A stretch of 64,000 nt of DNA, from contig NZ_MVBC01000011.1 in NCBI RefSeq assembly GCF_002007105.1, positions 62,001 to 126,000 on the forward strand, written 5' to 3'. The position numbers and the translations under genes were made by a program. The stretch comes from Hymenobacter sp. CRA2 (GTDB taxonomy: Bacteria > Bacteroidota > Bacteroidia > Cytophagales > Hymenobacteraceae). This document shows positions 6,069-61,180 of this stretch, in pieces. Every line of letters starts with the position of its first letter. The stretch's first letter is position 1. The notes under the pieces are model-generated. The model saw nothing but the letters and a program-made list of their open reading frames with translations. It was not told the DNA's origin and did no database searches.

Positions 6069-6526
6069 CTTGGATAATTATCAAGTCTGGGTAGAACATA
6101 TTAACTGATTAATCTTTGAGCTATTCGCATACGCAGTCATTTGCTAACCTTGTTAGTATACATACTGGTTGTGACTAACATAGAGTACCTTGTACGCGGG
6201 GTGAAGATAATCTGTATCAGGAAAACGCGGATTTGACTAAAAAAATTAGGAACTTTATGGGCGCCGATGGTCTTGGCAATTGTTGTGCTCTGCCCGGCAA
6301 GCGGTATTTTTGAAGGTCGCAGGCAGGAGCGGGGCCCCAAGGCACTGTTAGCTGCAACGCTTAAGAAGTGCCACCGTTTGAGCCGGCTTTCATTTTCTCC
6401 GTAGCTTTTGCGTCCTGCCGATGAGATAGTATTACGTTTAGTCTTCGCACCAAACGCGTGCGAGACTTGTTTTGAGGAGCCTTCGGCGGTGCGTTTGCCG
6501 CCGAGGAGAGGTACAAGAACATAACC
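6069..6526. promoter_or_regulatory. Long AT-rich leader upstream of the topoisomerase gene
   Basis: This intergenic stretch of about 460 bp is much richer in A and T than its flanks. It holds TACCTTG at 6187-6193, which resembles a Bacteroidota -7 box, and a short GC hairpin (6483-6489 with 6498-6504) just before the coding start. It probably carries the promoter and a long 5' UTR. A minus-strand frame at 6137-6340 has no protein-like character. I cannot exclude a small RNA. Confidence 0.35.
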
Positions 6527-9526
6527 GTGGCTTACGCCACCCTGCGAGTGTCAAACGACCACCACACCCCCGACGAGCAGAACCTTAACGGCCAGGACCC
6601 CGAGTTGTTCGGCGTCGGAGACACCATTGATTTTGGGGCCGCACCCGCCGCGGCCAACGACCCCGCCGATGCCCTGGCGGCCGATGCCATTGGCGTCGGT
6701 CCCGACGGGGAGTTGATTCCCATGGCCAGCGAGTCCCCCGAGCATAGCGAGGAGCTGGACGGCGAAATCCTCGCGGCTGAGACCCAGCCCGAAGAATCGG
6801 ATTTCCGCCCCGGCGAAACCATTCACGACATCAGCTCCATCGGCGGCATGTACCAGAGCTGGTTTCTGGAATATGCCTCGTACGTGATTCTGGAGCGCGC
6901 CGTGCCCGCCATCGAGGACGGCCTCAAGCCCGTGCAGCGCCGTATCCTGCACGCCATGAAAGAGATGGACGATGGCCGCTTCAACAAGGTGGCCAACGTC
7001 ATCGGGCAGACTATGCAGTACCACCCCCACGGTGACGCCTCCATCGGCGACGCCATCGTGAACCTGGGCCAGAAGGACCTGCTGATCGAAACCCAGGGCA
7101 ACTGGGGCGACGTGCGCACCGGGGACGGCGCGGCGGCTCCGCGTTACATCGAAGCCCGCCTGTCGAAGTTTGCCCTCGACGTGGTCTTCAACCCCGATAC
7201 CACCGATTGGCAGGCCAGCTACGACGGCCGCAAGCGCGAGCCCGTGACCTTGCCAGTGAAGTTTCCGCTGCTGCTCGCGCAGGGCATCGAGGGCATTGCC
7301 GTGGGCTTGTCCACGAAGATCATGCCCCACAACTTCCGCGAGTTGTGCAAGGCCAGCATCGACGTGCTCAAAGGGCGCGACATCGTGCTCTACCCCGACT
7401 TCCCCACCGGCGGCCTCTGCGACATCACCAACTACAACGGTGGCCTGCGCGGGGGCAAGCTGCGCCTGCGCGCCAGCATTGAGAAGGTCGACAAAACCAT
7501 GCTCATCATCCGCGACGTGCCCTACGGCACGACCACCACGGGCGTGATGGAGAGCATCGTGAAGGCCTCGGAGGCCAACAAAATCAAGATCAAGAAGGTG
7601 GTGGACAACACCGCCGCCGCGGTTGAAATTCAGGTGCACCTGCCCGCAGGCGTGTCGCCGGATTTGACCATGGACGCGCTCTACGCCTTCACCGACTGCG
7701 AAATCAGCCTCTCGCCCAACACCTGCGTCATCATCGAGGAGAAGCCGCGCTTCGTGGCGGTGGAGGACATGCTGCGCCTGAGCACCAGCAAGACGGTGCG
7801 CCTGCTGGAGCGCGAGCTGGAAATCCGCCAGGACGAGCTGCAGGAGCGTTGGCACTCGGCTTCGCTGGAGAAAATCTTCATCGAAAACCGCATCTACCGC
7901 AAAATCGAGGAGTGCGAAACCTGGGAGCAGATCCTGGAAACCATCGATGCCGGGCTGAAGAAGTACGTGCGCATCGACGGGGAGAAGCCCAAGGCCAACG
8001 ATACCCGCTTGGTGCTGCGCCGCGCCATCACGGAGGATGACCTCACGCGCCTGACGGAAATCCGCATCAAGCGCATCTCGAAGTACGACGGCTTCAAGGC
8101 CGACGAGTACATTCAGAAGTTGGAGGCGGAGCTCGAAGAAGTGGCCGACAACCTGGCCAACCTCACGCGCTACGCCATCCGTTACTTCGAGGGTCTGCTC
8201 AAGAAGTACGGCGACGGCAAGGAGCGCAAAACCGAGCTGCGCACCTTCGACGTGGTGACGGCCCAGAAAGTGGCCGTGGCCAACCAGAAGCTCTACGTGA
8301 ACTACCAGGACGGCTTCGTGGGCTACGGCCTGAAGAAGGGCGGGGGTGACGAAAACGTGAAAGAGGTCTGCGCCTGCTCCGACCTCGACGACATCATTGC
8401 CATCAAGCGCGACGGCTCGTTCGTGGTGACCAAGATTGCGGAGAAAACCTTCGTGGGCAAGGACATCCTGTACGCCGGCGTCTACAACAAAAACGACGAC
8501 CGGCTGGTGTACAACATGATCTACGTGGACGGCCCCTCCCAGATCAGCTACGCCAAGCGTTTCCTCGTCACGGGCATCACCCGCGACAAGTCCTACGACC
8601 TGACCAAGGGCGGCAAGAACTCCAAGGTGCTCTACCTGACGGCCAACCCCAACTCTGAATCGGAAACCGTGGCGGTGGAGCTGTCGGACAAGGCCCCAGC
8701 GCGCGTCAAGAAGTTCGACTTCGATTTTGCCGAACTGGCCATCAAGGGCAAAGGCTCGATGGGCAACATCGTGACCAAGCAGCCGGTGAAGAAAATCACC
8801 TTCAAGGAGCGCGGCGACTCGACGCTGGGCGGCCGCGAGGTGTTCTTCGACGAAGTGGTGGGCCGCCTCAACAACGCTGGCCACGGCCGCTTCATTGGCA
8901 CCTTCGATACGGACGAGACCGTGCTGGCTGTGTACAAGGACGGGTCGTACGAGCTCACGGCGCCCGACCCGGCCATTCACTTCGAGATGCGCAACCTGGT
9001 GCTGCTGCGCAAGTTCGAGGCCGATACGGTCATCAACGCGGTGTACGTGGAAGGCGAGTCGAAAACCCACTACGTGAAGCGGTTCCGCATCGAAACCAGC
9101 ACCGTGGCCAAGCGTTTCCTGTTCATCCCCGAAACCAAGGGTACGCACCTGCTGTGCGCCACCTGCGGCCTGATTCCGGAAATTGAGGTGAAGGTGCAGA
9201 AGGAGAAGAAAGGGGAGAAGCTCACCGAGCGCATCCACCTGCACGAGTTCATCGACGTGAAAGGGTGGAAGGCCATGGGCAACAAGCTCAACTACTTCAA
9301 GATCCACTCCGTGGAGCTGCTCACCGACGAAGGCCCCGAGCCGGAACGCAAGGCTCAGATCAAGAAAAAAGGTCCGGCTACGATTCCGCGTCCGCAGGCC
9401 GCAACGCCCGCTGATGAGGAGCCGCTGCCCGAACACGACGGGCCGGTGGAAATATCGGCGGAGGAGGTGGCCCAGGCGCAGGCTTTGCTGCAGCGCAAGC
9501 CCAAGTCGCAGATGACCTTGTTTTAG
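6527..9526 (+). CDS. parC: DNA topoisomerase IV (type IIA) subunit A
   Basis: This subunit cleaves and religates DNA and works with ParE to decatenate chromosomes. The breakage-reunion core starts at about residue 105 (MYQSWFLEYASYVILERAVP), with VQRRILHAM, YHPHGDASIG and the catalytic Tyr207 in APRYIEARL. A coiled-coil and gate region follows (about 420-560), then a beta-pinwheel C-terminal domain. No GyrA box (QRRGGKG type) is visible, which favours ParC over GyrA. The first 95 residues are an acidic, low-complexity extension. The start GTG at 6527 follows GAGGAGAGG; a downstream ATG at 6722 would remove most of the extension and cannot be ruled out. No parE is adjacent. Confidence 0.9.
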   Translation: MAYATLRVSNDHHTPDEQNLNGQDPELFGVGDTIDFGAAPAAANDPADALAADAIGVGPDGELIPMASESPEHSEELDGEILAAETQPEESDFRPGETIHDISSIGGMYQSWFLEYASYVILERAVPAIEDGLKPVQRRILHAMKEMDDGRFNKVANVIGQTMQYHPHGDASIGDAIVNLGQKDLLIETQGNWGDVRTGDGAAAPRYIEARLSKFALDVVFNPDTTDWQASYDGRKREPVTLPVKFPLLLAQGIEGIAVGLSTKIMPHNFRELCKASIDVLKGRDIVLYPDFPTGGLCDITNYNGGLRGGKLRLRASIEKVDKTMLIIRDVPYGTTTTGVMESIVKASEANKIKIKKVVDNTAAAVEIQVHLPAGVSPDLTMDALYAFTDCEISLSPNTCVIIEEKPRFVAVEDMLRLSTSKTVRLLERELEIRQDELQERWHSASLEKIFIENRIYRKIEECETWEQILETIDAGLKKYVRIDGEKPKANDTRLVLRRAITEDDLTRLTEIRIKRISKYDGFKADEYIQKLEAELEEVADNLANLTRYAIRYFEGLLKKYGDGKERKTELRTFDVVTAQKVAVANQKLYVNYQDGFVGYGLKKGGGDENVKEVCACSDLDDIIAIKRDGSFVVTKIAEKTFVGKDILYAGVYNKNDDRLVYNMIYVDGPSQISYAKRFLVTGITRDKSYDLTKGGKNSKVLYLTANPNSESETVAVELSDKAPARVKKFDFDFAELAIKGKGSMGNIVTKQPVKKITFKERGDSTLGGREVFFDEVVGRLNNAGHGRFIGTFDTDETVLAVYKDGSYELTAPDPAIHFEMRNLVLLRKFEADTVINAVYVEGESKTHYVKRFRIETSTVAKRFLFIPETKGTHLLCATCGLIPEIEVKVQKEKKGEKLTERIHLHEFIDVKGWKAMGNKLNYFKIHSVELLTDEGPEPERKAQIKKKGPATIPRPQAATPADEEPLPEHDGPVEISAEEVAQAQALLQRKPKSQMTLF

Positions 9527-17806: not shown

Positions 17807-17880
17807 TAGCGGGGACGAGAGTTGAACTCGTGACCTCAGGGTTATGAATCCTGTGCTCTAACCAACTGAGCTACCCCGCC
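17807..17880 (-). tRNA. tRNA-Met (anticodon CAT)
   Basis: Read on the minus strand, this 74-nt gene folds as a cloverleaf. The acceptor GGCGGGG pairs with CCCCGCT (a G-U first pair), the D-arm is AGCTCAGTTGGTTAGAGC, the anticodon loop has CAT within ATTCATAAC, and the T-arm is ACGAGTTCAACTCTCGT. CCA is not encoded. A CAT anticodon can also belong to initiator tRNA or to tRNA-Ile2 with lysidine. The G1-U72 pair and the D-arm favour elongator Met as usual in Bacteroidota, but by eye this is not certain. Confidence 0.9.
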
Positions 17881-20700: not shown

Positions 20701-22965
20701 ATGCCTCCTTACAACGCGGTTACCAAACACATTACTCTGCCGGACGGCCGGCAGATTTCCCTCGAAACCGGCAAGCTGGCCAAATTCGCTGACGGCGCCG
20801 TTGTGGTCCGCCTCGGCGATGCAATGCTGCTGGCCACGGTGGTGTCGCAGCCCAGCTCGCGCCCCGACGTGGACTTCCTGCCGCTGTCGGTGGACTACCA
20901 GGAGAAATTCGGCGGTGCCGGCAAGATTCCTGGCTCGTTCCAGCGCCGCGAAGGCCGCCTTTCTGACTACGAAGTGCTCGTGTCGCGCCTTGTAGACCGC
21001 ATCCTGCGCCCGATGTTCCCCAAGGACTATCACTACGAGGTGCAGGTAATGATTACCCTGATTTCGGCCGATAAGGACGTACAGCCCGATGCTCTGGCCG
21101 CCTTGGCCGCTTCGGCCGCCCTGTCGGTTTCTGATATTCCCTTTGCCGGCCCCATCTCGGAAGTGCGCGTAGCGCGCATCGATGGTCAGCTGCAGATTAA
21201 CCCCAAGACCTCGGACATCGAGCGTGCCGACATCGACCTCATCGTAGGTGCGACCATCGACTCGGTGGCCATGGTGGAAGGGGAGATGAACGAAGTGAGC
21301 GAAGAGGAGATGGTAGAAGCCATTGCCTACGCCCACGAAGCCATCAAAGAGCAAGTACGCGTGCAGCAGGAACTCGGCCAGGCCGTAGAGAAGTCGCACG
21401 TGAAACGCGAGTACCCCAAGTACGACGAGAACGACGATCTGAAGCAGCGCATCACCGAAGCCGTGTACCAAAAGGCCTACGAAGTAGCCAAATCGGGTAA
21501 CACGAGCAAGGCGGGCCGCAAGGAGTCGTTCGGCGCCATCAAGAAGCCCCTACTGGAAGAGCTGCAGGCCGAAAACCCGGAGCTGGACCTGAAAATGTTT
21601 GGCCGCTACTACGGTTCGGCTGAGAAGAAGGCTATCCGCGACATGATGATCAAGGAGCGCACCCGCCTCGATGGTCGTCAGCTGACGGAAATCCGCCCTA
21701 TCTGGTCGGAGGTGAACTACCTGCCCGGTGCCCACGGCTCGGCCCTGTTTACCCGCGGCGAAACCCAGTCGCTGACTTCGGTGGCCCTGGGTACCAAGCT
21801 CGACGAGCAGATCGTGGACTCGGCCATGGTGTCGGGCTACAACAAGTTCCTGCTGCACTACAACTTCCCGGCCTTCTCGACCGGTGAGGTGAAGCCCAAC
21901 CGCGGCCCTGGTCGTCGCGAAGTAGGCCACGGCAACCTGGCCATGCGCTCCATCAAGAAGGTGCTGCCCGGCGAGGACGAAAACCCCTACACCATCCGCG
22001 TGGTGTCGGACATCCTGGAGTCGAACGGCTCCTCGTCGATGGCTACCGTCTGCGCCTCTTCCATGGCCCTGATGGACGCTGGCATCAAGCTTAAGGCGGC
22101 CGTTTCGGGCATTGCCATGGGTCTGGTGCAGGACAAGGAAACCGGTGAGTACGCTGTACTGTCCGACATCCTTGGCGACGAAGACCACCTTGGCGACATG
22201 GACTTCAAAGTCACGGGCACCGAGAAAGGTATTGTGGCTTGCCAGATGGACATCAAAATCCAGGGCCTGTCGCACGAAATCCTCACCAAGGCACTGCACC
22301 AGGCTCGTGAGGGCCGCCTGCACATCCTGGGCGAGATGAACAAGACCATCAGCGCCCCGGCTGCTGACCTGAAGCCCCACACCCCGCGCTCCACGAAGAT
22401 TCTGGTCGACAAGGAGTACATCGGCGCCATCATCGGCCCGGGCGGCAAAGTGGTGCAGCAGATCCAGAAGGACACCAACGCGACCATCACCATCGAGGAG
22501 AAGGACGAGAAGGGCCACGTGTACATCTACACCTCCAACGCCGACGATATGGCGGCTGCCGTAGGTCGTATCCGCGGTATCGCGGCCACGCCGGAAGTGG
22601 GCGAGACCTACAGCGGTACCGTTCGCTCGATCCAGGCTTACGGTGCGTTCGTGGAGTTCATGCCGGGCAAAGACGGCCTGCTGCACATCTCCGAAGTGAG
22701 CTACGACCGTCTGCCCTCGCTGGAAGGCGTGCTGACGGTAGGCCAGGAAGTGAAGGTGCAATTGGTGGAGGTAGACAAGAAAACGGGCAAGTTCCGTTTG
22801 TCGATGAAGAGCCTGATGCCGAAGCCGGAGGGCTACGTGGAGCCGGCCGAGCGCCCCGAGCGGGGTGACCGGCCCGAGCGCGGCGACCGTCCGGATCGGG
22901 GCCCACGCCCCGACCGCGGTCCGCGTCCCGAGCGTGGCGAACGTCCGGAGCGTTTCAACCGCTAA
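20701..22965 (+). CDS. pnp: Polyribonucleotide nucleotidyltransferase (PNPase)
   Basis: PNPase degrades RNA from the 3' end using phosphate and is a core part of RNA turnover. The 754-residue protein has two RNase PH domains (LPLSVDYQEKFGGAGKIPGS in the first; FTRGETQSLTSVALGTK, NFPAFSTGEVKPNRGPGRRE and GDEDHLGDMDFKVTGT in the second), a KH domain with GAIIGPGGKVVQQIQ (about residue 575-590), and an S1 domain (YSGTVRSIQAYGAFVEFMPG). The C-terminus adds an Arg/Gly/Asp/Pro-rich tail made of repeats like ERGDRP, which could bind RNA. The ATG at 20701 starts the conserved region; the frame is open upstream into the rpsO terminator without similarity. Confidence 0.97.
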   Translation: MPPYNAVTKHITLPDGRQISLETGKLAKFADGAVVVRLGDAMLLATVVSQPSSRPDVDFLPLSVDYQEKFGGAGKIPGSFQRREGRLSDYEVLVSRLVDRILRPMFPKDYHYEVQVMITLISADKDVQPDALAALAASAALSVSDIPFAGPISEVRVARIDGQLQINPKTSDIERADIDLIVGATIDSVAMVEGEMNEVSEEEMVEAIAYAHEAIKEQVRVQQELGQAVEKSHVKREYPKYDENDDLKQRITEAVYQKAYEVAKSGNTSKAGRKESFGAIKKPLLEELQAENPELDLKMFGRYYGSAEKKAIRDMMIKERTRLDGRQLTEIRPIWSEVNYLPGAHGSALFTRGETQSLTSVALGTKLDEQIVDSAMVSGYNKFLLHYNFPAFSTGEVKPNRGPGRREVGHGNLAMRSIKKVLPGEDENPYTIRVVSDILESNGSSSMATVCASSMALMDAGIKLKAAVSGIAMGLVQDKETGEYAVLSDILGDEDHLGDMDFKVTGTEKGIVACQMDIKIQGLSHEILTKALHQAREGRLHILGEMNKTISAPAADLKPHTPRSTKILVDKEYIGAIIGPGGKVVQQIQKDTNATITIEEKDEKGHVYIYTSNADDMAAAVGRIRGIAATPEVGETYSGTVRSIQAYGAFVEFMPGKDGLLHISEVSYDRLPSLEGVLTVGQEVKVQLVEVDKKTGKFRLSMKSLMPKPEGYVEPAERPERGDRPERGDRPDRGPRPDRGPRPERGERPERFNR

Positions 22966-32762: not shown

Positions 32763-35700
32763 ATGCGGACACTTCTAACCCGCCGTTGCAGCCTGGCAAC
32801 GGTGCTCGGCTACTGCCTGGCCGTGGCGGCTCACGCCCAAAATCCTGCTCCCGGAGAGCAGCAAGTTGCCATTGTGGCGGCCTCGCCCAGCGTAAACACC
32901 GGCCAGGACTACTCGGCCTGGCTGGACAACGACCCCGCGCACCTGGTGCCGGATTACTGGATGCCCGCCAACTTCCAGTACATCGATGTGACCTTGCCGC
33001 TGAGCCAGGCCACCACGCTCACGCGGCTGGCGCTGTTTGATTACCAGGGCTCTTTTCCCAGCCAGCCGGCCACGCTCTACGCCGTCAGCGGCGGGCAGCG
33101 GGTGCTGCTGGGCACCTTCGATGGCGCGCAGTACAACCAATGGGTGGACCTGCCGGTAAGCGGCAACATCACGGCCGAAGCCATTGTCGTTCACAAGTAC
33201 TGCAACAACCTGCCGGTCAAGATCAAGGTGTTTGGGCGCAGCGGCAGCACGCCGCCGACCACTCCGCCCGCGCCGGTGCCCGCTGTCGTGAGCCTGGCCG
33301 CGCTGCCGACGCTCACGGCGGGCGGCGCGGCGTACGCGCTGTCGGCCAGCAGCACCAACACTGCCACGCCCATCACCTTCAGCTCCTCCAACCCCGGCGT
33401 GGCCGCGGTGACGCAGAGCGGCGGGCAGTGGCTGCTGACGCCGGTGGGAGCGGGCACGGCTACCGTTACGGCTTCGCAGGTGGCCGGCAGCGGCTACCTG
33501 GCGGCCTCAGCCAGCCAGACGGTGCAGGTGCAGGCGGCTCCGGCGGGCGGCAACGGCGGGGGCGGTACTGCGCCGCCTTCGGCGGCCGGGCGCATTCCGC
33601 TCGACCCCAGTCGTTGGTACATCCAGAACAACGTGGGCAACGGCATTGCGGCCCTGTTTGACGGGCAAACCAGCACCGGCGCCAGCACGGGCTGGGGCAA
33701 GATCCTGCCCACTTACGACACGTACTACGCCCTGCACCCGGGCGAGGCCATGAGCATCGAGAGCATCCGTTTCTTCGACGGCGAAGGCAGCAACCCCAAC
33801 GACCCGATGACGCTGTCGGTCATCACCGATACCTGGCAGCGCATTCCGGTGGCCACCTTCACGGGCGGGCAGTACCAGCAGTGGGTGGGGCCCGACCCCG
33901 CGCAGCCCGGCAACTTCCGGCTGAGCGCGCCCATCAACAACGTGCGCTACCTGGTCATCACCGCCTCGTGGGCGTACCCGACGGAAATCGAGCTGTACGG
34001 GCCCTACGTGGCCGGCACCTCGCCGGCCGCCGCCGATCCGGCGGCGCTGGCCCGGCAAAAGCAGATCAAGCTGCGCCAGCAGCTCGGGGTCAATGCCTTT
34101 GAGTGGGACATTGAAGACCCCAACCGACCCTATGAAGTGGACGAAACGCGGCTGGCAGCGGCCCGGAACTTCCGCGGCATCCGGCACTACGTCGACTGGG
34201 AGAAGCTGGAGCTGACCGAAGGCAACTACACCTTCAACCCCACCCACAGCGGGGGCTGGAACTACGACGCCCTGTATCAGCGCCTGAAGCAGGAGGGCAT
34301 CGAGGTGCTGGCTTGCCTGAAGACGCTGCCGCCGTGGATGCTGGCTAGCTACCCAGGCCCGGAGCGGGATATGGAAAACGTGCCCGTACGCTACGGCCGC
34401 GACTTCAGCAGCCCGCAGTCCTACCTGGAGCAGGCCAAGGTGGGCTTTCAGTTTGCGGCGCGCTACGGGGCCAACGCCGGCGTAAATCCGGCGCTGGTGC
34501 GCGTGAACCCGGCCACCCGCTGGGGCGGCGACGGCGTCAACCAGGTGCGCATCGGGCTGAACCTGATTAAGTACATCGAGTGCGACAACGAGCGGGACAA
34601 GTGGTGGAAGGGCCGCAAAGCCTACCAGACCGGCCGCGAGTACGCCGCCAACCTCTCGGCTTTCTACGACGGGCACAAGGGCACGATGGGCCCCGGTGTG
34701 GGCGTGAAGAACGCCGACCCCGCTATGCAGGTGGTCATGGCCGGGCTGGCCTCGCCCAACCCCGACTACGTGCGCGGCATGATAGACTGGTGCCGCCAGT
34801 ACCGCGGGCTGAAGGCCGACGGCTCGGTGAACCTGTGCTGGGACGTCATCAACTACCACCTGTACTCCAACGACGCCCGCACCTCGCAGGGCGGCAACTC
34901 CACCCGCGGGGCGGCCCCGGAGGTGTCGGAAGCCGGGGAAGTAGCGCGGGCCTTCGTGCAGATGGCCCATCAATACGCCGGCGACATGCCCGTCTGGATT
35001 ACCGAAACCGGCTACGACGTGAATCAGGGCAGCCCGCTCAAGGCCGTGGCTATCGGCGGCCGCTCGGTGCTCGAAACCCAAGCCGACTGGCTGCTGCGCA
35101 CGGCGCTGCTGTATGCCCGCTGGGGCGTGGAGCGGGTGTTCTTCTACCAGATGTACGACGACAACCCTGGCAGCAGCCAGCAGTTTGCCTCTTCGGGGCT
35201 GATCAACCAGGACAAGACGCCCAAGCCCGCGGCCGATTTCATCCGCCAGGCCGGGCAGCTGCTGGGCGACTACACCTACCAGAACACGCTCAGCCAGGAC
35301 CCCATTGTGGACCGCTACACCAACGGCAGCCGCACGGCTTACGCCCTGGTGGTGCCGGATGAGCGCGGCCGCACCGCCAGCTACACGCTCAGCGTGGGCG
35401 CCGATTCGGCCCGCATCTACCGCCCGCAGGCGGGGCAGGCCACGATGAGCCTGACGCGGGTGCGCACCCAGGGCGGCAACCTGCAACTGACCGTGACCGA
35501 GACGCCGCAGTTTGTGGTGGTGGGCGGCGGCGGTACCAGCTCGGCGCCGCCGGCTACCACGGGCTGCGCCGGCACGGGCTCGATTCAGCTGGAGCAGTGG
35601 ACGAACGTAGGCGGTACGGCCATCAGCGCCATTCCGCTGCAAACGTTCCCCACCAGCACCAGCACGCTCAGCAAGCTGGAAAGCCCCCGCAACCTGGGCG

Positions 35701-36371
35701 ACAACTACGGCGTGCGCATCCGCGGCTACCTCTGCCCGCCGCAGAGCGGTAGCTACACCTTCCGCCTCGCCGGCGACGATGACTGCGAGCTGTGGCTCAG
35801 CCCCGACGCCGACCCGGCCCACAAGGTGCGCATTGCCGGCTTCGCGGGCTATACCGACTACGGCCAGTGGGACAAGTACGCCGGGCAGCAATCGGCGCCG
35901 GTGACGCTGCAGAGCGGGCAGCGCTACTACGTGGAGGCGCTGATGAAGGAAGCCGGCGGCCAGGACTTCGTGGCCGTGGCCTGGACCCTGCCCAACGGGC
36001 AAACCGAAGCCCCCATTGCCGGCTCCCACCTGATTCCGTTCGGCCCCACGGCCAGCCGCAGCGCTGCGGCTTCGGCTACCGCCACGGCCGCGACTTCACG
36101 AACGGGCGCGGAAGCCGAGGTAGTGGCTTTCCCCAACCCCTTCACCGACGAAACCCGCATCAGCCTGCGCCTGCCCACGGCCGGCCCGGTGATGCTGGCC
36201 CTGTACGACGCGCAAAACCGCCTGGTGCGGCGGCTGTACCAGGGCACGCTAAGCGCCGGAGAGCAGAAGCAGGTGACGCTCGGCCGCGAAGGACTGAGCA
36301 CGGGCATCTACATCCTGCGTCTTTCGACCAAGGATCAGGTGCTGACCCGGCGCGTGTCGTTTGTGCCCTGA
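32763..36371 (+). CDS. Modular secreted glycoside hydrolase with PA14 and T9SS sorting domains
   Basis: This 1202-residue protein is exported by the type IX system. In order: signal peptide (LATVLGYCLAVAAHAQ), a beta-sandwich discoidin-like domain (about 30-160), an Ig-like repeat (about 165-255), a Gly linker, a second sandwich (about 270-425), and a clan GH-A barrel (about 435-770). The barrel has acid/base Glu in IECDNERDKWW and nucleophile Glu in VWITETGYDVNQ. A short beta domain and a PA14 domain follow (about 935-1090, RGYLCPPQSGSYTFRLAGDD). The T9SS sorting domain is last (about 1118-1202, VVAFPNPFTDETRISL; end RRVSFVP). Its substrate is unknown; it lies next to a simpler hydrolase and the polysaccharide locus. 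Confidence 0.9.
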   Translation: MRTLLTRRCSLATVLGYCLAVAAHAQNPAPGEQQVAIVAASPSVNTGQDYSAWLDNDPAHLVPDYWMPANFQYIDVTLPLSQATTLTRLALFDYQGSFPSQPATLYAVSGGQRVLLGTFDGAQYNQWVDLPVSGNITAEAIVVHKYCNNLPVKIKVFGRSGSTPPTTPPAPVPAVVSLAALPTLTAGGAAYALSASSTNTATPITFSSSNPGVAAVTQSGGQWLLTPVGAGTATVTASQVAGSGYLAASASQTVQVQAAPAGGNGGGGTAPPSAAGRIPLDPSRWYIQNNVGNGIAALFDGQTSTGASTGWGKILPTYDTYYALHPGEAMSIESIRFFDGEGSNPNDPMTLSVITDTWQRIPVATFTGGQYQQWVGPDPAQPGNFRLSAPINNVRYLVITASWAYPTEIELYGPYVAGTSPAAADPAALARQKQIKLRQQLGVNAFEWDIEDPNRPYEVDETRLAAARNFRGIRHYVDWEKLELTEGNYTFNPTHSGGWNYDALYQRLKQEGIEVLACLKTLPPWMLASYPGPERDMENVPVRYGRDFSSPQSYLEQAKVGFQFAARYGANAGVNPALVRVNPATRWGGDGVNQVRIGLNLIKYIECDNERDKWWKGRKAYQTGREYAANLSAFYDGHKGTMGPGVGVKNADPAMQVVMAGLASPNPDYVRGMIDWCRQYRGLKADGSVNLCWDVINYHLYSNDARTSQGGNSTRGAAPEVSEAGEVARAFVQMAHQYAGDMPVWITETGYDVNQGSPLKAVAIGGRSVLETQADWLLRTALLYARWGVERVFFYQMYDDNPGSSQQFASSGLINQDKTPKPAADFIRQAGQLLGDYTYQNTLSQDPIVDRYTNGSRTAYALVVPDERGRTASYTLSVGADSARIYRPQAGQATMSLTRVRTQGGNLQLTVTETPQFVVVGGGGTSSAPPATTGCAGTGSIQLEQWTNVGGTAISAIPLQTFPTSTSTLSKLESPRNLGDNYGVRIRGYLCPPQSGSYTFRLAGDDDCELWLSPDADPAHKVRIAGFAGYTDYGQWDKYAGQQSAPVTLQSGQRYYVEALMKEAGGQDFVAVAWTLPNGQTEAPIAGSHLIPFGPTASRSAAASATATAATSRTGAEAEVVAFPNPFTDETRISLRLPTAGPVMLALYDAQNRLVRRLYQGTLSAGEQKQVTLGREGLSTGIYILRLSTKDQVLTRRVSFVP

Positions 36372-36394
36372 AGCACCAAGCCGACCGGCCAGGA

Positions 36395-36451
36395 CCACCT
36401 GGTTCGGGAGTCCCTGGCCGCAGATAGGCCAGGGACTCCCGAACCAGGTGG
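36395..36451. terminator. Perfect 25-bp hairpin after the modular hydrolase
   Basis: Arms 36395-36419 and 36427-36451 are exact reverse complements with a 7-nt loop. No T-run follows. The right arm ends inside the first unit of the 21-bp array, which shares its GAACCAGGTGG core, so the structure may have arisen from that repeat. Confidence 0.6.
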
Positions 36452-36734
36452 CTGCCGCAGCGAACCAGATGGGGCCCTATCCGAACTCACTTGGCGCTTG
36501 GCCGAACCAGTTTAGGGCTACTATGAGATGTTTTGGGCGGAATGCGGCTCGTATTTGGACAAGACCGGGCCAGTTCGGTTAGTAACCGGCTTAGTTCTGG
36601 TCAAACGCGAGCCAGCTTGTGTCTGGTTGGGCCTGATTTAGGTCAGGTGTGAGCCAGTTTGGGCACGAAGCGGCCCAGTTTGGCTCGGCTCCGAACCAGT
36701 TAAGGCCCGCGCTGAGCCCGTTGGGCTACCCCGG
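36441..36734. repeat. Degenerate 21-bp tandem array, about 14 units
   Basis: From 36441 the sequence can be cut into 14 consecutive 21-nt units without a single gap. Most begin GAACCAG, GAGCCAG, GGCCCAG or similar, continuing with TTTGGGC (examples at 36462, 36504, 36567, 36609, 36651, 36672, 36693). Units differ from each other at many positions yet length is exact. In one plus-strand frame the units read as heptads with the pattern (P/A)-(N/S)-Q-(F/L)-(G/R), for example PNQFRAT, VSQFGHE, AAQFGSA and PNQLRPA, but stops occur in the middle (TAG TAA at 36580-36585). See findings. Confidence 0.8.
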
Positions 36735-36807
36735 TGGCTCCTGCGGGCGTCGTGCCGCCTGGGGCAATACGAGCAACTGTCGGAGAGGCGGTCGGGCGAA
36801 ACCCGGT

Positions 36808-37806
36808 CTATGCTTGGGCCGCGGTGCCGCCGCGCAGGGTGTGCAGTACCTGCCGGGGAAAACTCAGGTCCAGCGGCGCCTGCAGCAGGGCTTTGGCGGC
36901 GTACCGGGCCCCGGTCAGCAGCTGTCCTTTGCCGAAGGCGTAAAGCGCCCCTTCGCGCATCCGGTCCAGCTCCAGCTGCCGGCGCCAGCGTGCCGTAAGG
37001 GGCCGCACGGCCGCCAGACGCGCCGGCAGCGGCAAGTGAGCGAAAGTAGCCGTCAGCAGGTGGGCCAGCCGGGCGTCCATCAGCTCTTTCTGGCGCGGGC
37101 CCCAGTAGTGAAACACGTACTGGTCGCTGCGCAGCAGGGGAAACTGCAGCGGCAGAGCTACCGAAAACGCCAGCTGCTCGGCCGTAAACCAGCCCGTGGC
37201 GGCGTAGAAGGCGTCGGTCAGCGCATACACGTCGGGCAGGAGCGGGGCGGCTGTGGCGGGCAGGCCCAGCACGCCCGAGTTCCAGGCCTGCTGGGTGCGC
37301 AGCAACTGCCGCGCCCGGCCCGCCACGCGGAAGGTGCAGCCGGCAATCAGCTCCAGAAAGCGGCGCGGGTACTCGGCCTGATCGAAGCTGGCGTAGATGC
37401 CCGGGGCTTCCTCGAACGTGTACTCCGGCTGGTGCATGAAGGCCGTGCCGGCGGCCAGCCAGCGCAGCAGCGGCCCGGGGTCCGACTGGAAAAACGTGTC
37501 GGAGTCGCAGTAGAGCAGGCTGCGGCCGGGGTACACCTGCTGCACCTCGTCGAGCACGGCCACCTTCACGCGATGCACGTAGTGGTGCGGCCCCTGCATG
37601 GCCCGCCGCTGCTCCACCTCGAGGGGTACGTAGTCGACGGGCAGGCCGGCGAGATAGGGCTCGAAGAAGGCCGGGCAGTCGGTGAAGACGAGGGTGCGCA
37701 CGGCCTGCTGCGGGCCGCGGTAGCGGGCCCAGAAGCTGAGCGCCGCGAACAGGGCACGGCGGTATTCGGCCTCGCGGCCGTAAGAAAGCAACACAAGGTA
37801 CTGCAT
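36808..37806 (-). CDS. GT8-like glycosyltransferase of the polysaccharide locus
   Basis: This 332-residue soluble protein has a nucleotide-sugar transferase fold. It has the start MQYLVLLSYGREAEYRRALF, the acidic motif LLYCDSDTFFQSDPGP (a DxD-type metal site), the acceptor-side phrase QAWNSGVLGLPATAAPLLPD, and FHYWGPRQKELM near the end. Such proteins add a hexose in lipopolysaccharide and exopolysaccharide synthesis. It is the last gene of the minus-strand locus, 190 nt beyond the flippase, so it may be a separate unit. The sugar donor is unknown. Confidence 0.75.
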   Translation of the reverse strand: MQYLVLLSYGREAEYRRALFAALSFWARYRGPQQAVRTLVFTDCPAFFEPYLAGLPVDYVPLEVEQRRAMQGPHHYVHRVKVAVLDEVQQVYPGRSLLYCDSDTFFQSDPGPLLRWLAAGTAFMHQPEYTFEEAPGIYASFDQAEYPRRFLELIAGCTFRVAGRARQLLRTQQAWNSGVLGLPATAAPLLPDVYALTDAFYAATGWFTAEQLAFSVALPLQFPLLRSDQYVFHYWGPRQKELMDARLAHLLTATFAHLPLPARLAAVRPLTARWRRQLELDRMREGALYAFGKGQLLTGARYAAKALLQAPLDLSFPRQVLHTLRGGTAAQA

Positions 37807-60916: not shown

Positions 60917-61180
60917 CGTTGAACGGCTCATTCAGCCCGTCATGTCGAGCGTAGTCGAGACATCTCGCCGGATAGTAATCTGCTCGTTGAAGTTGAATAA
61001 GTGAGGATACTATCAGGCGTCAGCACGCGAGATGTCTCGACAAGCTCGACATGACGGGCTGAATTGTCGCCCTGACGTCAGCACGCGAGATGTCTCGACT
61101 ACGCTCGACATGACGGGCTGAATGAGCCGTTCAACGACGCCCACAAGATACCTCGACACGCTCAACTGGAAGGGCTGATT
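60917..61180. repeat. Cluster of REP-like palindromic repeats
   Basis: The 52-bp segments 60917-60968 and 61085-61136 are exact reverse complements. A third, slightly shorter copy in the same direction as the second lies at about 61027-61064 (GAGATGTCTCGACAAGCTCG, then ACATGACGGGCTGAAT), and a worn fourth near 61145-61180. Each copy has the inner palindrome TGTCGAG/CTCGACA with a variable loop and the flank GACGGGCTGAAT. The gap 60841-61203 holds no gene. These are intergenic repeats with hairpin structure. No transposase or RAYT gene is within the window. Confidence 0.85.

Follow-up and report, generated by a model that had tools for sequence, protein, structure and literature searches.

The window analysed here, a stretch of 64,000 nucleotides on contig 2 of the 5.9-Mb genome of Hymenobacter sp. 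CRA2, contains a tandem array of 21-bp units that we read, with a probability of about 45%, as an orphan of a class of 21-bp arrays whose units are most likely binding sites for the proteins of two families, here called A and B. Arrays of this class that adjoin the genes for these proteins lie on a fixed side of them, downstream of A genes and upstream of B genes, and they divide by symmetry, with mostly palindromic units behind A and non-palindromic units before B. In its unit sequence the window array resembles the arrays linked to A.

The array occupies positions 36441..36734 on the plus strand, as delineated by autocorrelation and unit alignment. The first-pass annotation had described about 14 units of exactly 21 bp, free of indels, and had staked this on a 21-nt autocorrelation peak over randomised controls. 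The peak is present: identity at lag 21 is 0.480, against 0.262 ± 0.028 in 5,000 first-order Markov randomisations, whose maximum was 0.370 at this lag and 0.402 at any lag from 3 to 79, and identities at lags 42 and 63 are 0.504 and 0.459. When the 64 kb were scanned in 10-base steps, the 294-base stretch from 36441 gave the top lag-21 score. The 14 units stand in register without an indel, although freedom from indels does not hold as a rule for the class, given that a 1-nt slip is visible in the relative L281. Aligning the units, as had been proposed, gives a gap-free consensus of about GRNCCAGTTTGGGnnnnnnnC, with G at column 1 and T at column 9 invariant in 14 of 14. Mean pairwise identity is 0.47, and because the units are only 47% alike the array is absent from TRF output at score 30. 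We count in the period-21 class arrays of at least four units with a fundamental period of 21 outside predicted genes, and the window array is one. By blastn the window locus was not found in 57 other genomes (E <= 0.01), and in a plasmid collection it gave just two Azospirillum matches, at E 0.9. A known RNA family was rejected, given that the sole Rfam 15 match in the whole window at gathering score is a tRNA at 17807-17880, with none at the array. Two other repeats were noticed in the window, a 58-bp tandem repeat at 61021-61178 (2.7 copies, 79% matches) and a period-18 repeat region at 22784-22952 with a lag-18 identity of about 0.55.

The hairpin reported beside the array is real. An inverted-repeat search finds a perfect 25-bp inverted repeat with arms at 36395-36419 and 36427-36451 and 7 nt between them, the right arm overlapping the start of unit 1; this is the sole inverted pair of at least 12 nt within 36370-36800, at the left edge of the array. 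L249, an array linked to an A gene in the same genome, also has a perfect 25-bp inverted repeat close to its start. According to gene calls and Pfam, the upstream neighbour (32763..36371, plus strand) encodes a 1,202-aa protein that matches PA14 and GLEYA and, at a score under the curated cut-off, Por_Secre_tail; it stops 70 bp ahead of the array. The downstream neighbour (36808..37806, minus strand), convergent with it, encodes a 332-aa protein without a Pfam match at E <= 0.001 and ends 74 bp past the array. Neither is a family A or B gene, and it is because the neighbours are a PA14-domain protein and this 332-aa protein that we call the array an orphan. A type III toxin-antitoxin locus was rejected, given that the array lies between two converging genes with no toxin gene directly downstream, and so was CRISPR, given head-to-tail units that are 47% alike and no cas match in Pfam for the two adjacent genes.

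A PWM of the window units led to a second array in the same genome, L003, which adjoins a gene that we take from its sequence to be chorismate-synthase-like. A sequence-only model of 84-mers from the window array and L003 was used to reach more arrays, and the wider model, a gap-free alignment of 18 rows from six arrays, matches five of eight genomes of the genus at E <= 0.1 and 16 of 150 family genomes at E <= 0.02. The search of related genomes for the same period, suggested in the first-pass annotation, was thus productive: lag-21 autocorrelation is found in 27 of 28 fetched Hymenobacter loci, the window itself among them. Neither these sister arrays nor the linked protein families were within view of that annotation. 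Most array rows (33 of 39) lie outside the genes predicted by a simple ORF-based caller, mostly filling the intergenic gap. One palindromic array form is carried by Hymenobacter edaphi, H. ruricola and H. daecheongensis; the palindrome pattern was not seen in the viral contigs searched.

A model-free scan of 400-kb samples found two period-21 places in the host genome (G000) and five in a second carrier genome, G028, one of which is coding (in L236, at 16842, an orthologue of the ORF-borne L171). Period 21 was the commonest short period in both samples, which hold period-41 places too. In G005 and G007, in which neither A nor B was detected, there was no period-21 place in 400 kb each; absence here refers to profiles A4 and A5 at E <= 1e-5, which could miss more diverged members. 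Period-41 arrays were noted in the two carrier genomes sampled (L222:7754-7958, L234:16273-16477, and L237:8365-8569 and 6496-6618), and the samples of G005 and G007 had none that passed the threshold; the B-linked L307 also has period 41, and this period is possibly a 20+21 variant of the period-21 class. Separately, dispersed repeats of about 40-50 bp occur at L107:9490-9600, with similar copies in L172, L165, L235, L095 and L225; they reach 98% identity across genomes, stand in both orientations, and in one case lie near the L107 array.

The array could be what is left of a gene for a heptad-repeat protein, given that 21 bp are seven codons and that two of the 27 period-21 loci, L171 and L174, lie inside strong ORFs. 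We give this almost no credence. The stops that had been said to interrupt the reading frame are there in all six frames of the window array (2, 4, 4, 4, 4 and 4), none of which is open throughout. Over 71 arrays an open frame occurs in 60, about as many as permuting the units by column would give (56.2), and no orthologous array was seen with a single long open frame under purifying selection. The rows are also largely extragenic, as given above. Period-21 places that code for heptads, namely L171, L174 and the one in L236, were flagged by gene overlap and excluded as linked or orphan arrays; L163, L164, L165 and L177 also overlap ORFs of the simple caller, and all of these four but L164 enter some of the counts.

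Two protein families recur as neighbours of the arrays, family A of about 160 aa (alignments A4 and A7) and family B of about 230 aa (alignments A5 and A6). Neither has a match near the cut-off in Pfam, NCBIfam, PADLOC or PHROGs, and their profiles, run over an 800-kb genome sample, gave no match at E <= 1e-3. Predicted models of both are all-helical (mean pLDDT 83 for A and 79 for B), and Foldseek found nothing for them in the PDB at E <= 0.001; a PDB sequence search with B gave a best E of 0.0086. A proteins are slightly acidic, with pI 5.2-6.7 in 11 and just the last 40 residues basic, and B proteins are mostly basic, with pI above 9 in 10 of 13. A tblastn search of the plasmid collection with one A and one B protein found nothing, nor did one of the phages with the B protein. 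In a phylum sample of 296 genomes, A occurs in 26 and B in 14. A family B gene of the host genome (L265/L273, G000:C22:174452-175095) is split in two pieces and has a weak upstream array with a lag-21 score of 0.16. Two further unassigned small proteins with an upstream 21-bp array, at L094:4138-4899 and L236:810-1769, are candidate families C and D; protein C was found in a genus search in its source genome, G003, only, and the orphans L158 and L159 bear the L094 unit.

The link between genes and arrays is clear in both families. At 41 family A loci from 33 genomes, a lag-21 array lies downstream in 23, upstream in none and on neither side in 18; at 48 family B loci from 23 genomes, it lies upstream only in 37, on both sides in one, downstream only in none and on neither side in 10. 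The lag score threshold of 0.2 behind these counts is our choice, and L255 and L259, which are fragments of a single gene, are entered separately among the 41. The search seeds were array neighbours in Hymenobacter, so close A and B orthologues are not independent, and the fair controls are the opposite gene flank and distant families. A protein-based search at the family level gave lag-21 arrays at 9 of 15 A loci and 17 of 23 B loci, and among distant Bacteroidota of the phylum sample at 17 of 30 A loci and 23 of 30 B loci. The A tally of the phylum sample misplaces L320 and L339 (contig edge, gene fragment), and the geometry count over 41 and 48 loci corrects contig edges. Control loci from the host genome had a lag-21 array in 3 of 57 cases, equal to the number of loci overlapping the window array (L031, L032 and L038). 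Of 60 genomes searched, A is in 10 and B in 11, and all six of those with R2 array matches (E <= 0.02) have both. Repeat hits on one locus were dropped (L273, L284, L285, L309, L311, L315, L316, L330 and L341), as were three B-search and nine A-search matches in the phylum sample that had no fetched locus; delineation of arrays covered 23 A loci out of 41 and 34 B loci out of 48. A search for a TANNTTTG promoter in the gap that separates a B array from its gene did not demonstrate one, with four matches where 2.1 are expected and none to the strict form.

The period is as constant as the geometry. With the best lag sought within 16-26, 21 came first at 26 of 34 A loci (22 at one, none over threshold at seven) and at 38 of 39 B loci (20 at one). 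The tally drew on 34 A loci out of 41 and 39 B loci out of 48; those omitted mostly lack an array, apart from the array-bearing L296, L297, L320 and L339. The unit sequences of the linked arrays differ widely, so the proposal that constant unit length reflects a constraint is upheld. Constant period with widely different units likewise fits the suggested "phased DNA structure or binding array". Intrinsic curvature is unsupported: power at 10.5 bp in A/T content relative to permuted units, the one test applied, stands at chance in the three classes (mean percentile 0.50-0.53, the window array alone reaching 0.925), and on this test curvature is an unlikely cause of the period. An old minisatellite decaying neutrally by point mutation would agree with the low identity of the window units and with the failure to find the locus in any of the 57 other genomes, but not with a single period over divergent sequences, a fixed gene side in two protein families and empty samples from the two genomes without detected A or B. 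We regard neutral decay as very unlikely for the window array, and for the class the fixed gene-array geometry rules against it.

Symmetry separates the two kinds of linked array. Judged by a dyad z above 2 against column-permuted units, 16 of 19 A arrays are palindromic, as are 1 of 33 B arrays and 5 of 19 orphans; arrays whose delineation score did not exceed 11 were dropped from the symmetry and fold tests, four from A (L249 of the host genome among them) and one from B. RNA folding follows the same division: A arrays have a mean fold z of -6.6 on both strands against 20 shuffles per array, and 17 of 19 have a strand, or both, with z under -3; B arrays, at -0.3 and -0.1, have no fold signal. 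A serious rival to binding of double-stranded DNA is therefore, although on balance still unlikely, that A-type arrays work as hairpin strings, formed either in RNA (the 3' UTR of A genes) or in single-stranded DNA and partnered by the A protein, the window array being an orphan copy. It has the palindromes and the fold on its side. Sense-strand GC skew is also positive, with more G than C, in 16 of 19 A arrays (mean absolute skew 0.14), a strand bias that RNA action explains better than our main reading does, and A proteins are not basic overall. At p < 0.01, L246, L321 and L323 among the A arrays and L172, L092 and L159 among the orphans pair more than their column shuffles do, the count for L172 being inflated by its internal duplication, and the window array folds somewhat better than its shuffles (z -2.6 and -3.4). 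However, the excess is limited to 3 of 19 A arrays and is shared by the B array L291, and the window array has none (z -0.4); with so few arrays, selection on pairing is not established throughout. Above all, B arrays have the 21-bp period and the tight gene link without a fold signal, so RNA structure cannot explain the period. They have no fixed strand composition either (GC skew positive in 18 and negative in 13 of 33), which together with the missing fold signal favours double-stranded DNA as the acting form for B.

By unit resemblance, the window array looks like an orphan A-type array. Its PWM scores z > 3 in 5 of 27 A-linked arrays (L165, L168, L247, L318 and L249) and in none of 33 B-linked arrays, where the maximum is 1.7; the loci of L165, L168 and L247 had been retrieved by a profile containing window units, and L249 and L318, the latter from a genome of another family, were reached via the protein alone. 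A second ranking, over 57 linked arrays and excluding L165 and L168, places L318, L249 and L247, all A-linked, at the top for the window array, so the A-linked array of its own genome ranks second. Both comparisons dropped arrays with a delineation score of 8 or less, one from each family. The window array itself is not significantly palindromic (dyad z 1.3), and with so weak a dyad signal the A-type label rests on the resemblance of its units.

For 7 of 13 orphans, a linked array of the orphan's own genome, which supplies 3 to 5 of the 57, comes first or second in the ranking, and the remaining six have theirs at ranks 4th to 17th. Such resemblance would also be expected of selfish or mobile repeats spread by the A and B proteins in the manner of RAYT and REP, with orphans as dispersed copies. 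Within one genome L094, L158 and L159 have a common unit and no common flanks, and L163 (which overlaps a predicted ORF) and L177 are similar arrays at separate loci of one genome whose blastn similarity is confined to the array. That the two congeners without detected A or B had no period-21 place points the same way. However, all-against-all blastn finds the same family A gene with differing array units at L165, L168, L169, L173, L175, L178 and L184, and matching flanks on both sides with differing units between them in the pairs L169/L173, L178/L184 and L166/L172. Units that differ at the same gene or between the same flanks across species suit a maintained function; the copies compared have no common flanks, and neither A nor B matches a nuclease or transposase. 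We hold spread by these proteins to be improbable, if far from negligible.

We favour sites for bound protein: the best explanation of a two-turn period that spans divergent sequences and both symmetry classes, on a side of the gene that depends on the family, is a protein reading one face of DNA. In favour also stand the tendency of orphans to resemble linked arrays of their own genome, the co-occurrence of arrays with A and B, and the mostly basic B proteins. In such a model each 21-bp unit would be one binding site for the cognate protein, one for every two helical turns, with the protomers aligned along one face of the helix. The A protein would act as a dimer on palindromic units and the B protein directionally on non-palindromic ones. 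Autoregulation or nucleation might be the task of an array next to its gene; orphans, the window array among them, would be bound in trans and may affect neighbouring genes. The slightly acidic A proteins speak against plain DNA binding, and no recognised DNA-binding fold appears for A or B in the four databases or in the Foldseek comparison named above. It also counts against the model that no lag-21 array passes the threshold at 18 A loci out of 41 and at 10 B loci out of 48, some of which have periods of 22, 41 or 43, and that no promoter could be demonstrated ahead of the B genes. Among these, the A loci L249-L252 fall short of the threshold at lag 21 (0.16-0.20) and reach 0.22-0.25 at lag 63, the A genes L319, L325, L327 and L329 of other Bacteroidota have downstream arrays of period 43 or 22/44, and upstream of their B genes L307 has its period of 41 and L310 a lag of 63.

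Several known systems combine short repeats with a protein. REP/BIME mosaics have palindromic units in arrays, associated RAYT proteins and orphan copies; the REP unit is longer, its length is not fixed at 21 bp, and RAYTs are tyrosine transposases. A arrays are likewise palindromic, tied to a protein family and accompanied by orphan copies elsewhere, but the A and B models are all-helical and give no tyrosine transposase match. ParR-parC centromeres and Rep-iteron arrays are built of short direct repeats, spaced by roughly two turns and adjoining the gene for their binding protein; they serve plasmid partition or replication and involve known folds, whereas the A and B arrays are chromosomal, with several per genome, and their proteins are unassigned. 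In type III toxin-antitoxin systems such as ToxIN, tandem repeats stand directly upstream of a small-protein gene, as they do in family B; the antitoxin repeats are longer and form pseudoknots, whereas B arrays lack a fold signal and a fixed strand composition and A arrays lie downstream. The nearest printed case that we found is BrickBuilt of Porphyromonas gingivalis, described in the parts of Klein et al. 2015 (PMC4596501) used here as a 23-nt minisatellite/MITE at 19 places in one genome and thought to be noncoding. It resembles the present arrays in belonging to Bacteroidota, in being intergenic and in mixing conserved and variable unit columns (PMC4596501). As presented in those parts, it differs in being one element family with a 23-nt unit and 0-6% insertions or deletions within the element, in having a leader and tail, terminal inverted repeats and target-site duplications, and in that no linked protein family is reported (PMC4596501). 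A BrickBuilt MITE was rejected for the window array, whose strongest short lag is 21 (with multiples 42 and 63) and not 23 nt, and which has no leader or tail with terminal inverted repeats. The same parts of PMC4596501 and those used of PMC5771137 contain no 21-bp arrays linked to A- or B-like proteins, and no account of the system was found in the PMC literature, a scope that takes in few subscription papers and no preprints.

The gene-array link suggests a protein-and-DNA-array system in many Bacteroidota that has gone unrecognised. We see an even chance that family A, acting on its own palindromic arrays 3' of its genes, family B, acting on its own directional arrays 5' of its genes, and orphan arrays elsewhere in the genomes make up, across Bacteroidota, a new class of protein-DNA or protein-hairpin array system whose role lies in the nucleoid, in regulation or in genome defence; its units would turn over fast under a fixed period, symmetry class and side. 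Should the link hold, one system with a simple design rule, a unit for every two helical turns, palindromic behind A and directional before B, would take in many Bacteroidota "hypothetical proteins" and intergenic repeats. The constant unit length of some minisatellites, an old question, would then become directly testable.
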